Shown one piece after another: positions 1 through 6,101 of a stretch of 64,000 nucleotides of DNA (the stretch's first letter is position 1; each line of letters begins with the position of its first letter). A program made the translations under genes and the position numbers. The stretch is from NCBI RefSeq assembly GCF_029227915.1, contig NC_079883.1, positions 7,688,001-7,752,000 of the forward strand, read 5' to 3'. This stretch comes from Hydractinia symbiolongicarpus. Taxonomy: Eukaryota > Cnidaria > Hydrozoa > Anthoathecata > Hydractiniidae. The notes below the pieces were generated by a model, which saw only the letters and a list, made by a program, of their open reading frames with translations, was not told where the DNA came from and searched no databases.

Positions 1-225
1 GGATGGACGGCGACATAGTAAAAATCACGGCTGTTGATTTAGCCGTAGGATGGAGAGCGACTGTAGCGAGTGGATGGTAACTTACATGAATGCTAACAAA
101 GGCGACGATACTAAGTGCGTGATATTACTTTCCAATATGACTGCGTACATTCCGTTTATCAACGCATTACGCCAGAACGTGCGCGCGCGTTACACAGTAG
201 ACCATGCAGCCGAAATGCGACAGTG

Positions 226-298
226 CGACCCTGCCAGGAGTCGAACCTGGAATCCCCTGATTCGTAGTCAGATGCCTTATCCATTGGGCCACAGGGCG
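226..298 (-). tRNA. trnR-ACG: tRNA-Arg(ACG), type A with C at position 1
   Basis: A 73-nt cloverleaf reads on the minus strand. The anticodon loop is CTACGAA after stem TCTGA, giving anticodon ACG (read as ICG for CGN arginine codons after A34 deamination). The internal promoter boxes are visible: A box around TGGCCCAATGG and B box GGTTCGACTCC. There is no intron and CCA is not encoded. Type A copies have C at base 1, which faces C72 and loses the first acceptor pair; type B copies have G1. No run of four T follows within about 190 nt downstream; the nearest is a T5 at 20-24. Function is probably arginine delivery, but processing of the C1 form is uncertain. Confidence 0.95.
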
Positions 299-702
299 AT
301 GCTTATGACTTCGCCCCATCGTTATTTTGGCTTGCGCATTCGTTTTACTTACGACAGAATTCTTCGTGTTTGTAGCCATGAAAGAAAGGGACTTCTGTGA
401 GTGAATTTTTTTACTGTGGTCTAATAAAAAAGTCGAAACGCAGTGCCCAATATATGAATTGCTCCTAATAGCCGGAAACAGGCCGTGTCGATGATGTAGG
501 CCGACATACGCAACGCAAACCAAAGAACGCTTTATGAAAATCCTAACACGGGCGCGGAAGAAGCCCAAATTAACAGAGTAGATGTAATGCTGAAGACCTC
601 AAACTCCAGCAGCTTCTCTTTCAGACTATTGCGTCGTGCTACAAATAAAAATTAACATGCTTTCGCATAGTCGCGGCTCCCAAAACGGACATTATACGAT
701 GT

Positions 703-722
703 ACAGAAACACACATTTCTGT
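703..722. promoter_or_regulatory. 7-bp inverted repeat upstream of H1
   Basis: ACAGAAA and TTTCTGT flank a 6-nt CACACA centre. The last T is shared with the E2F-like site that follows. It lies about 155 bp upstream of the H1 start codon in every complete copy. Role unknown. Confidence 0.45.
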
Positions 723-734
723 TTTCGCGCCAAA
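722..734 (+). promoter_or_regulatory. E2F-like site in the H1 promoter
   Basis: TTTTCGCGCCAAA matches the E2F/DP consensus TTTSGCGC on both strands. It lies about 145 bp upstream of the H1 ATG. E2F sites drive S-phase transcription, which fits a replication-dependent histone. Binding is inferred, not shown. Confidence 0.6.
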
Positions 735-877
735 TCAATTCCCGGGAGTGGTACTTTTACGTCCGCATACTTCGCACCGTCTTAAATTATATCTCATTTA
801 CACGGTAATGTTTAGTATACTTCTACTGTGATAACAAGCATCGTTTATCGTTGGATTGTTGTAAGAAAACATTAAAA

Positions 878-1429
878 ATGAGTGAAGCAGCTTCTCCAAA
901 GAAAATCGCACCCAAGAAGAAACCTGCTGCAAAGAAGACAGCTGATCACCCTAAATATGTGGACATGATCAAGGCTGCTATCGCTACCCTAAAGGAACGC
1001 GGTGGTTCATCTCGCCAAGCTATTACAAAATATATTCATGCAAATTACAAAGTTGCTGAAAACTCAGATCATCATCTGAAAATGGCTCTTAAACGAGGAG
1101 TAACATCAGGCGATTTGATTCAAACTAAAGGCACTGGTGCTTCTGGATCATTCAAGCTAGGTCAGGTAAAAAAAGAAAAACCTAAGAAAAAGGCCGCAGC
1201 AAAAAAGCCAACGGCAAAGAAGCCTACTGCAAAGAAAAGTACACCAAAAAAGAAGCCAGCAAAGAAGAGCACGCCAAAGAAAGCAGCAAAGAAGCCTGCC
1301 ACAAAGAAAGCCTCGGCTAAGAAACCAGCAGCTAAGAAACCCACAAAGAAGCCTGTTGCTAAAAAACCTGCAGCAAAGAAGGTCAAAAAGACTCCCAAAA
1401 AGGCAGCAAAGAAGACCGCAAAAAAATAA
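878..1429 (+). CDS. H1: Linker histone H1
   Basis: The 183-residue linker histone binds nucleosome entry/exit DNA and compacts chromatin. Residues 1-23 form a basic N-tail with an SPKK motif at 6-9. Residues 24-95 form the winged-helix globular domain, from HPKYVDMI to GASGSFKLG. Residues 96-183 are a lysine/alanine/proline tail with three TPKK motifs, likely CDK sites and minor-groove contacts. The start is the ATG at 878 after AACATTAAAA; the frame stays open upstream to 851 but offers no other ATG. The gene has no intron and ends in the histone stem-loop rather than a poly(A) signal. It converges on H3 and has its own promoter with an E2F-like site. The length is slightly short for a metazoan H1. 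Confidence 0.97.
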   Translation: MSEAASPKKIAPKKKPAAKKTADHPKYVDMIKAAIATLKERGGSSRQAITKYIHANYKVAENSDHHLKMALKRGVTSGDLIQTKGTGASGSFKLGQVKKEKPKKKAAAKKPTAKKPTAKKSTPKKKPAKKSTPKKAAKKPATKKASAKKPAAKKPTKKPVAKKPAAKKVKKTPKKAAKKTAKK

Positions 1430-1461
1430 TTTGTGTGTATCTGGCTATTACATTAACAAAC

Positions 1462-1477
1462 GGCTATTTTTATAGCC
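1462..1477 (+). terminator. Histone mRNA 3' stem-loop of H1
   Basis: GGCTATTTTTATAGCC forms a 6-bp stem with a TTTT loop, 33 nt past the stop. The animal consensus has a pyrimidine at stem position 5; here it is A, paired with T. An A-rich block follows at 1479-1498, where the U7-binding downstream element should be. SLBP binding and U7-directed cleavage are inferred. Confidence 0.9.
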
Positions 1478-1753
1478 ACACATTTACAAAAAAACATTAT
1501 CTTGGTACAAAGTTAAACTTGTTTAAGTCACTTAAACAGTTAAAAAAGAGTAATTTTAAGATTAGATTCCCTAAGTTTAAGTATTTTCGTTTTTAAATTT
1601 CTTATTTTCTTGCTTTTACTTTTCTTGCCCTTCATATTTTTAACATTGTCAAACTTTATGTAGCATAAAATTTTTATGTAGCATAAAATTTAAACAGAAA
1701 GCAGAACAAAGTTTGATATAAAAAGCTAGCCGTAATATTTTTTATGGATGTGT

Positions 1754-4593: not shown

Positions 4594-4609
4594 GGCTATT
4601 TTTATAGCC
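4594..4609 (+). terminator. Histone mRNA 3' stem-loop of H2A
   Basis: GGCTATTTTTATAGCC, 23 nt past the stop. The downstream block at 4611-4630 is CACATCTTTAAAAAAACATT. Confidence 0.9.
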
Positions 4610-4768
4610 ACACATCTTTAAAAAAACATTGTTTTTTTCACAAAACTATAACCTTAAAGTCTAATAGATAATCCATGCATACGCCTTGTCCTAAGTAACT
4701 CAAAGAAATTAAATAAAAAAATTTGATCACAACGTCAAAATAAATTGCACGTATTTGCCCCTACTAAT

Positions 4769-4888
4769 GTCTACGGCCATACCACGATGAACACACCCGT
4801 TCTCGTCTGATCACGGAAGTTAAGCATCGTCGGGCCGGGATAGTACTTGGATGGGGGACCGCCTGGGAACTCCCGGTGTCGTAGGCTT
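4769..4888 (+). rRNA. 5S rRNA: 5S ribosomal RNA
   Basis: The 120-nt gene begins GTCTACGGCCATACCACG and ends GTCGTAGGCTT. The terminal helix closes (GTCTACG with CGTAGGC). The internal Pol III control regions are clear: box A around AGTTAAGCATCGTCGGGCC and box C around GGATGGGGGACCGCC. A TTTT terminator directly follows GGC. The 5S is a large-subunit rRNA transcribed with TFIIIA. Linkage of 5S to histone genes is known in several invertebrates. Confidence 0.98.
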
Positions 4889-5237
4889 TTCATTTTCATT
4901 TGTTGCCTTTTCATTTCAATGGTGCTGTGATATATTTCTTGTTATAACAATTAAGGAACGTGGCGGTTGTTGAAAGTGTTTCCTATGACATTTTCCTACG
5001 ACATTTTCAGGTGATAGTACGAGAAAAAAGAGCTTTCAAATGCATACAAACTCGATCTATTGCCGATCATCCAATAACCCTGACGGAATGGCAAATAAAA
5101 TAAAATTCCGCCGCCTTCCGAGGACTTATATCGCAATCACGTTTCGTAACAGCCAAGCGAGGTTTTACCTTAGCGTTTAAGTCACCACCGACATTTGGCC
5201 GCGCAACTTTTCTAAGCTCATTCATTTTGAATTAAGG
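4889..5237. other. 5S-U1 spacer (349 bp, no gene seen)
   Basis: Just past the 5S terminator, type A has a 22-bp segment (about 4903-4924) with repeated TTTTCATTT that type B lacks. At 4982-5007 a 13-bp unit CCTAYGACATTTT is repeated twice. An inverted pair GGAAT/ATTCC lies near 5087-5110. Next to U1, the minus strand reads CAAAATGAATGA, a candidate U1 3' box. No RNA family is recognised. Confidence 0.6.
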
Positions 5238-5402
5238 AGGGGGCGAGCGCGGACGCAGGCCCCCACTACCAGAAATTGTACGGTCGAGTTACTGACGTTT
5301 GCAGTAATCGCAGAGGTCAGCCCAAGCGTAGTGCAATGCAAGAGCCTCACTCTGGAAGAAAACCCTCATTGATCAGTCTTTACTTCCCCGTCAGGTAAGT
5401 AT
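5238..5402 (-). ncRNA. U1: U1 spliceosomal snRNA
   Basis: U1 recognises 5' splice sites. On minus the RNA begins ATACTTACCTG, the exact splice-site-pairing end. The U1A-binding loop core ATTGCAC is present, followed by GCTGACC. The Sm site AATTTCTGG follows, then stem-loop 4 (GGGGGCCTGCG ... GCCCCC). Length is about 165 nt against the usual 164; the 3' end is accurate to about 2 nt. The PSE-like nonamer lies at 5451-5459. U2 lies directly upstream on the same strand. Confidence 0.95.
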
Positions 5403-5450
5403 GAGTTGGAACTGCACCGTAGCATGAGGGTACCCTTCAAAGTTTGTTAA

Positions 5451-5459
5451 TGCTTGTGG
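5451..5459 (-). promoter_or_regulatory. U1 proximal sequence element (candidate)
   Basis: CCACAAGCA begins 57 bp upstream of the U1 5' end. The identical nonamer is at nearly the same distance from U2. The spacing is that of metazoan PSEs bound by SNAPc. Confidence 0.7.
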
Positions 5460-5591
5460 CTTGAGTGTGTTATAAACTGCCGTGTCGCGGGGCATAGGCT
5501 GTATTCTCCCCCAGTGTACGCGTTTTGTTCCCGCCGTAGACTATGCAGAGTGCCGTCGGAAAGAGGACTGCTATTATTCTTTTATTGCTTA

Positions 5592-5779
5592 TGTGGGCCG
5601 CCATCGGTAATAGTGCAACACCAAGGCAACCCGTGGTCACGGCGTGAATGAATCCACCTCCATGACCCAAGGCCAAAAATCAGATTAATATACTGACCAT
5701 TCAGAGAATGGCCTACCAGATATTAAACTGATAAGAACAGATACTACACTTGATCTTAGCCATTAGGCCGAGAAGCGAT
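5592..5779 (-). ncRNA. U2: U2 spliceosomal snRNA
   Basis: U2 pairs with the intron branch point. On minus it begins ATCGCTTCTCGGCC and continues AAGATCAAGTGTAGTATC, which includes the branch-site-pairing GTAGTA. The Sm site is GATTTTTGG. Stem-loops III and IV follow, with TTGCAC in the last loop. Length of about 188 nt matches the family; the 3' end is approximate. A purine-rich AATAAAAGAATAATAG about 10 nt past the end may be the 3' box used by Integrator. The PSE is at 5825-5833. Confidence 0.95.
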
Positions 5780-6101
5780 AAAGAACAAGCGTTGCCATGA
5801 TAGGCATCGTCCACACACCGTAACTGCTTGTGGAGCATGTCACGTTACTGTAAAGCTTACAACTGTCACCGCGTACGGATGGACGGCGACATAGTAAAAA
5901 TCACGGCTGTTGATTTAGCCGTAGGATGGAGAGCGACTGTAGCGAGTGGATGGTAACTTACATGAATGCTAACAAAGGCGACGATACTAAGTGCGTGATA
6001 TTACTTTCCAATATGACTGCGTACATTCCGTTTATCAACGCATTACGCCAGAACGTGCGCGCGCGTTACACAGTAGACCATGCAGCCGAAATGCGACAGT
6101 G
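5780..6101. other. U2 promoter and U2-tRNA spacer (322 bp)
   Basis: The U2-proximal part holds the PSE. Beyond it on minus are a 6-bp hairpin (5903-5922), GATTTTTAC (T5 at 5896-5900) and an 8-bp hairpin with one G-U pair (5864-5891), preceded by a GTAAGT at 5956-5961. These resemble the 3' half of an Sm-class RNA or simply a distal tRNA terminator. No PSE is seen for such an RNA, so no gene is called. Confidence 0.5.
5825..5833 (-). promoter_or_regulatory. U2 proximal sequence element (candidate)
   Basis: CCACAAGCA begins 54 bp upstream of the U2 5' end. Apart from the U1 copy I saw no other occurrence within a repeat. Confidence 0.7.

Follow-up and report, generated by a model that had tools for sequence, protein, structure and literature searches.

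Histone, 5S rRNA, U1, U2 and tRNA-Arg genes share one tandem unit in Hydractinia symbiolongicarpus, as in its sister species

Introduction

What does it mean for genes of all five histones, 5S ribosomal RNA (rRNA), the small nuclear RNAs (snRNAs) U1 and U2 and an arginine transfer RNA (tRNA-Arg) to lie together in a single tandem repeat? The locus analysed here is a 64,000-nucleotide stretch of the hydrozoan Hydractinia symbiolongicarpus (contig NC_079883.1, C9 for short, positions 7688001-7752000; hereafter the window), and its positions 1-5876 make up a single unit of a tandem array that contains H1, H3, H4, H2B, H2A, 5S, U1, U2 and tRNA-Arg(ACG). Such a unit is a rare natural case of histone, spliceosomal RNA, 5S rRNA and tRNA genes in one repeat, and could be used to test whether gene linkage is needed for histone locus bodies and Cajal bodies. 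Histone, snRNA, 5S and tRNA genes are an established mix of genes of the RNA polymerase II (Pol II) and RNA polymerase III (Pol III) types, and the mixture pointed out in an earlier, sequence-only reading of this DNA follows from that knowledge.

Here, we argue that the locus is most probably, at odds of about three in four, the known canonical replication-dependent histone array of Hydractinia, with genes that are transcribed independently, small-RNA genes that were inserted, and a unit that is homogenised as a block. The composite unit itself has been known since 2016 from the sister species H. echinata. Beyond its published existence, we add its chromosomal scale, the existence of two unit types, one of which has a tRNA lesion (~23% of copies), and the occurrence of 5S in three settings, namely within the unit, split off alongside it and on a separate contig. 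Together, these settings are well suited to the study of how RNA genes join tandem arrays and how they leave them.

Results

The nine genes of the unit follow each other in the order tRNA-Arg(ACG) (-), H1 (+), H3 (-), H4 (+), H2B (-), H2A (+), 5S (+), U1 (-) and U2 (-). One tandem repeat with five histones, 5S, U1, U2 and tRNA-Arg, as proposed in the sequence-only reading, is borne out by Rfam, ARAGORN, open reading frames (ORFs) and nine complete units in the window, which are accompanied by partial units. At Rfam gathering thresholds the window holds 11 U2, 11 U1, 10 5S and 12 tRNA genes, and ARAGORN assigns every one of the 12 tRNAs to Arg with anticodon ACG. The five histone ORFs per unit are complete and intronless, and H1 has as its best relative an H. 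symbiolongicarpus protein named 'histone H1-delta-like, partial' (99% identity, 92% of the query). A 3' stem-loop lies behind all five histone genes; three reach the Rfam gathering score of 34 bits, and those of H4 and H3 score lower. Features shared with the Hydractinia-type repeat are five single-exon histones and a tandem unit of ~6 kb with 5S, U1, U2 and tRNA-Arg inside.

The account of H. echinata by Torok et al (2016; PMC5011920) describes a 5998-bp tandem repeat that contains H1.1, H2A.1, H2B.1, H3.1 and H4.1 plus 5S, U1, U2 and Arg tRNA, a set they called 'a constellation not previously described'. The sequence-only reading had supposed the combination to be unreported, a claim that fails because this paper reported the same gene set. 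Compared by gene set and length, the two repeats share five single-exon histones with stem-loop 3' ends, 5S, U1, U2, Arg tRNA and a tandem arrangement in high copy, and differ in length (5998 bp versus 5840-5876 bp for complete H. symbiolongicarpus units). The tRNA is also named differently, with 'GCA codon' in that account and anticodon ACG by ARAGORN here; the former is probably the triplet ACG written backwards. The H. echinata unit was obtained by phrap assembly of Illumina reads, about 700 or more clusters were estimated per haplotype, the snRNAs and 5S were transcribed in every stage investigated, and canonical histones were reported to be expressed in S phase without polyadenylation (PMC5011920). 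This agreement in gene set and approximate unit length supports the identification of the locus as the known Hydractinia array.

Other reports place the unit in a wider context. Histone arrays with U1, U2 and 5S have been described in H. symbiolongicarpus itself, with reference to the H. echinata report (PMC10368294, 2023); the array passage of that paper names no tRNA, whereas tRNA-Arg is found in the unit analysed here, and it considers U1 and U2 likely to be Pol III genes, whereas an upstream element shared by the two genes fits Pol II snRNA genes, although it is suggestive only. The coral Acropora pruinosa similarly has a cnidarian tandem repeat in which 5S sequence flanks U1 and U2, but its core histone signal lies on a separate chromosome pair, the 5S pieces at the clone ends are short, and the part of the paper that describes the repeat does not name a tRNA (PMC8167085, 2021). 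Artemia, Asellus and Mytilus combine histones and 5S in one tandem unit, and the sentences and titles that cite them name histones and 5S alone (cited in PMC5011920 and PMC8167085). The main text of the Podocoryna genome preprint has no mention of histone, 5S rRNA, snRNA or tandem. A survey of the literature on the gene combination by title and the start of the abstract, with most subscription journals outside its scope, yielded the Hydractinia and Acropora papers as relevant.

The extent of the array was assessed by sampling twenty 10-kb stretches of C9, and genome-wide counts were made over the 480.9-Mb assembly. No unit sequence is present at 6.90 and 7.09 Mb, the left array edge is at 7.10 Mb, and all 15 samples from 7.30 to 11.81 Mb (4.5 Mb) consist of 95-100% unit sequence in both orientations, with some internal deletions; the three samples at 95% each contain a 500-N gap. 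Eight of the 15 are gap-free with a complete unit. The nine genes are all found again in most sampled units, and some units lack certain genes through internal deletions. At 12.20 and 12.50 Mb another array takes the place of the composite unit, and smaller stretches bracket its right end at 12.1587-12.1600 Mb, so that the composite block would measure ~5.05 Mb if it is continuous between samples. Near this end, 12.140 Mb matches the unit partly and 12.143 Mb not at all. A tRNA marker (a 30-base pattern with C or G as its first base, matched exactly) has 855 copies genome-wide, 466 and 389 by strand; among the matches listed, one lies on contig C4 and the others on C9. The copy number is thus in the hundreds, like the ~700 per haplotype reported for H. 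echinata. The best-scoring U2 candidates, 46 of 46, are on C9.

Within the window, a truncated unit (~18.2 kb) and a switch in orientation (after 59.3 kb) fall at 500-N gaps, located at 18210-18709 and 59323-59822 respectively. Because both disruptions adjoin gaps, the truncated and inverted units may be scaffolding effects, and we do not accept them as real events.

The units fall into two types. Among type A units in the window, identity to the first is 100% for the second and 99.98% for the third, and type A is separated from type B by 13 substitutions and two indels (2 and 22 bp). One difference affects the first base of the tRNA (window position 298), where type A has C1 facing C72 and type B has G1, with Rfam scores of 51 versus 58.2 bits. 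The C1 mismatch is carried by 195 of the 855 marker copies (~23%), which are grouped in blocks, a pattern expected from drift with homogenisation. Full copies identical to those of the first unit number 37 of 38 for 5S, 39 of 40 for U1 and 35 of 39 for U2. Across the window and 18 stretches, two of which lack the unit, we compared 168 full-length histone copies (18 partial matches at sample edges or deletions were set aside): 155 encode the same protein as the first unit, 6 have in-frame changes and another 7 contain a frameshift or stop, with assembly error a possible cause in some. In the unit pile-up, genes are less variable than spacers, with 19 variable sites in 2610 bp versus 47 in 3266 bp (Fisher p 0.012).

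The array that replaces the composite unit on C9 is a 625-bp repeat of unit positions 4694-5320, which include the complete 5S gene and part of U1. It begins at ~12.16 Mb, is still present at 12.6857 Mb and is gone at 12.700 Mb (~0.53 Mb); of 19 places sampled inside it, 18 show the repeat and one, at 12.323 Mb and picked for a U2 match, is composite unit. This array is a derivative of the composite unit that it neighbours. We compared 35 full copies, 30 of which come from two stretches: 5S has 0.0096 differences per base per copy, the spacer 0.0095 and the U1 piece 0.0093, and 5S equals the consensus in 10 of the 35. The array behaves like a satellite, since its 5S varies as much as its spacer. 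Across 36 composite copies of the corresponding segment, 5S and the U1 piece show a single difference each and the spacer 18.

A second 5S array, with a 569-bp period, lies on contig C11, which takes 40 of the 47 best-scoring matches in an Rfam 5S search (the other 7 are on C9). Of 12 preset stretches, 10 contain it, over 14.20 to 15.95 Mb (1.75 Mb). In 13 copies from preset places, 5S differs less than its spacer (0.0168 versus 0.0409 differences per base per copy), whereas an earlier set of 15 copies near the four best-scoring matches gave no constraint (0.0291 versus 0.0293); both sets are small, and we prefer the preset one because the first held near-duplicates picked by score. The C11 5S differs from the histone-linked 5S at 5S positions 8, 30 and 40 (15 copies and the consensus of the 13). 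Its spacer has 36-49 bp in common with the composite unit (82-86% identical), plus ~30 bp upstream, a likeness suggesting that the 5S gene and flanking DNA moved together. Tandem arrays of rRNA, U1, U2 and tRNA in Hydractinia have been described in general terms (PMC11067881, Genome Research 2024), and we make no claim that the 625-bp and C11 arrays are unpublished.

What do the regulatory signals of the unit suggest? U1 and U2 have a common motif, CCACAAGCANTNAC, at -57 and -54, and these are the only two sites in the unit within 2 mismatches. The motif may be an snRNA promoter element, which would fit Pol II snRNA genes without proving the point. The 5S gene ends in TTTT, and the tRNA has both an A box and a B box, as judged against consensus sequences.

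Discussion

How, then, did these genes come together, and does their linkage matter? On our reading of the locus, each of its genes probably has its own class of promoter: the histone genes would be transcribed by Pol II and end in stem-loops, U1 and U2 would use Pol II through an snRNA-type upstream element, and 5S and the tRNA would use Pol III through internal promoters, with all of them presumably expressed in H. symbiolongicarpus. Most likely, the small-RNA genes were inserted into the histone repeat as pieces of DNA, after which unequal exchange and gene conversion would have spread them and kept the copies alike. Because they would have spread in this way, the copy number of the small-RNA genes would ride on the histone array rather than be jointly regulated, and linkage as such would bring no selected advantage. 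The near-identity of units in samples over 4.5 Mb, together with the occurrence of 5S in two other arrays, supports this explanation.

Several observations nonetheless weigh against it. The U1/U2 motif exceeds chance only moderately: among 1000 shuffled pairs, 27 produce as good a match at a comparable offset and 288 do so if any offset is allowed, for which reason we regard it as suggestive, not as proof, of a promoter element. The tRNA gene has no nearby T4 terminator: no T4 run occurs until ~201 nt downstream, ahead of the U2 motif. Of the 55 Arg codons in the unit histones, 35 are CGN and 20 AGR, a share compatible with use for the unit's ACG tRNA, which could serve those 35; this share does not in itself point to a dedicated role. 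Finally, the lower variation of the genes and the gene set common to both Hydractinia species are equally expected if the linkage was selected.

Selected linkage would mean that the array nucleates a merged histone locus body and Cajal body, where histone and snRNA transcripts, neither of them polyadenylated, draw on common processing factors and 5S and tRNA are passengers or participants. A shared nuclear compartment for the unit genes is plausible, since in humans the loci of histones and snRNAs come together at Cajal bodies (PMC4802181). In Caenorhabditis elegans, the levels of histone mRNA and SL1 depend on ATTF-6, a single factor with foci at the 5S-SL1 cluster (PMC11822377), and Torok et al suggest that U2 may have its place in the array owing to its role in histone 3'-end formation (PMC5011920). 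The recurrence of all nine genes in most sampled units also agrees with selection. However, the Rfam scan of the unit yields no U7 match at E <= 5, 5S has additional arrays, almost a quarter of the tRNA copies carry the first-pair mismatch, and internal deletions remove genes from some units, and we consider selected linkage unlikely. Somewhat more doubtful still is a bolder form, in which the ~5 Mb and ~855 multi-polymerase units are a selected platform that fuses the two bodies and sheds single-gene satellites such as the 625-bp 5S array.

The sequence-only reading also entertained joint dosage, whereby array size would set matched amounts of histone, 5S, U1, U2 and tRNA-Arg genes. Each gene occurs once per complete unit, the tRNA marker is present in 855 copies, and the CGN share of the histone codons would suit such matching. 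Its 5S part is weakened by the 625-bp derivative array and the separate C11 array: 5S is also found in the ~0.53 Mb of mostly 625-bp repeats adjoining the composite array and in the 1.75 Mb of 569-bp repeats on C11, where it is less variable than its spacer. Because these extra arrays exist, we reject joint dosage for 5S, and find it very improbable as a whole. An artefact, with the combined unit a mis-join of separate arrays, might be suggested by the N gaps and orientation switches in the array and by the position of both in-window disruptions at gaps. The gap-free samples and the nine complete units in the window speak against it, and so does the same gene set in the Illumina assembly of H. 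echinata (PMC5011920); contradicted by two independent assemblies, mis-assembly of the unit is rejected and retains a negligible probability. The known histone array with inserted small-RNA genes thus remains our preferred explanation.

Unit annotation

Table 1. Features of the first unit and layout of the window (positions in the window; score limits refer to the Rfam gathering score).
Feature	Position	Strand	Basis
tRNA-Arg(ACG), type A copy, C1:C72 mismatch	226..298	-	Rfam, ARAGORN
Histone H1, 183 aa	878..1429	+	ORF
H1 3' stem-loop	1457..1502	+	RF00032, 36.9 bits
H3 3' stem-loop	1734..1774	-	RF00032, 27.1 bits, E 1.7e-4, under gathering 34
Histone H3, 136 aa	1791..2201	-	ORF
Histone H4, 103 aa	2728..3039	+	ORF
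H4 3' stem-loop	3059..3105	+	RF00032, 29.2 bits, E 2.7e-5, under gathering 34
H2B 3' stem-loop	3438..3483	-	RF00032, 38.9 bits
Histone H2B, 134 aa	3502..3906	-	ORF
Histone H2A, 126 aa	4191..4571	+	ORF
H2A 3' stem-loop	4589..4634	+	RF00032, 35.1 bits
5S rRNA, TTTT run at 3' end	4769..4887	+	Rfam, 113.8 bits
Segment repeated alone as 625-bp array, C9 ~12.16-12.69 Mb	4694..5320		Stretch comparison
U1 snRNA	5238..5402	-	Rfam, 141.6 bits
Proximal sequence element (PSE)-like motif CCACAAGCATTAAC, start 57 bp upstream of U1	5446..5459	-	Motif comparison
U2 snRNA	5588..5779	-	Rfam, 152 bits
PSE-like motif CCACAAGCAGTTAC, start 54 bp upstream of U2	5820..5833	-	Motif comparison
Three complete type A units, 5876 bp	1..17628	+	Unit alignment
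Assembly gap, 500 N, adjoining apparent truncated unit	18210..18709		Sequence
Six complete type B units, 5840-5852 bp	19416..54513	+	Unit alignment
Assembly gap, 500 N, at switch to inverted units	59323..59822		Sequence
Pieces of inverted unit past gap	59823..64000	-	Rfam, ORFs

With permissive settings, Rfam added just two further matches in the unit, each under the cut-off: an L20 leader (E 1.5) and, antisense to the tRNA, a plastid ycf2 leader (E 0.015). CCAAT strings number three between the divergent H3 and H4 genes and two between H2B and H2A, as raw counts with no chance control.

Four histone deletions are each confined to a single unit, and represent either altered copies or assembly errors: 1 bp in H4 (unit position 2760) in the unit starting at 19416, 12 bp in H4 (2847-2858) in the unit starting at 31118, 1 bp in H2A (4538) in the last unit before 59322, and 5 bp in H1 (1420-1424) in the inverted unit. 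A partial unit lies dispersed on contig C4 at ~15.38 Mb; its U1-U2-tRNA-H1 sequence is in two pieces, 94% and 99% identical, and it is possibly related to the H1.3 pseudogene of Torok et al.

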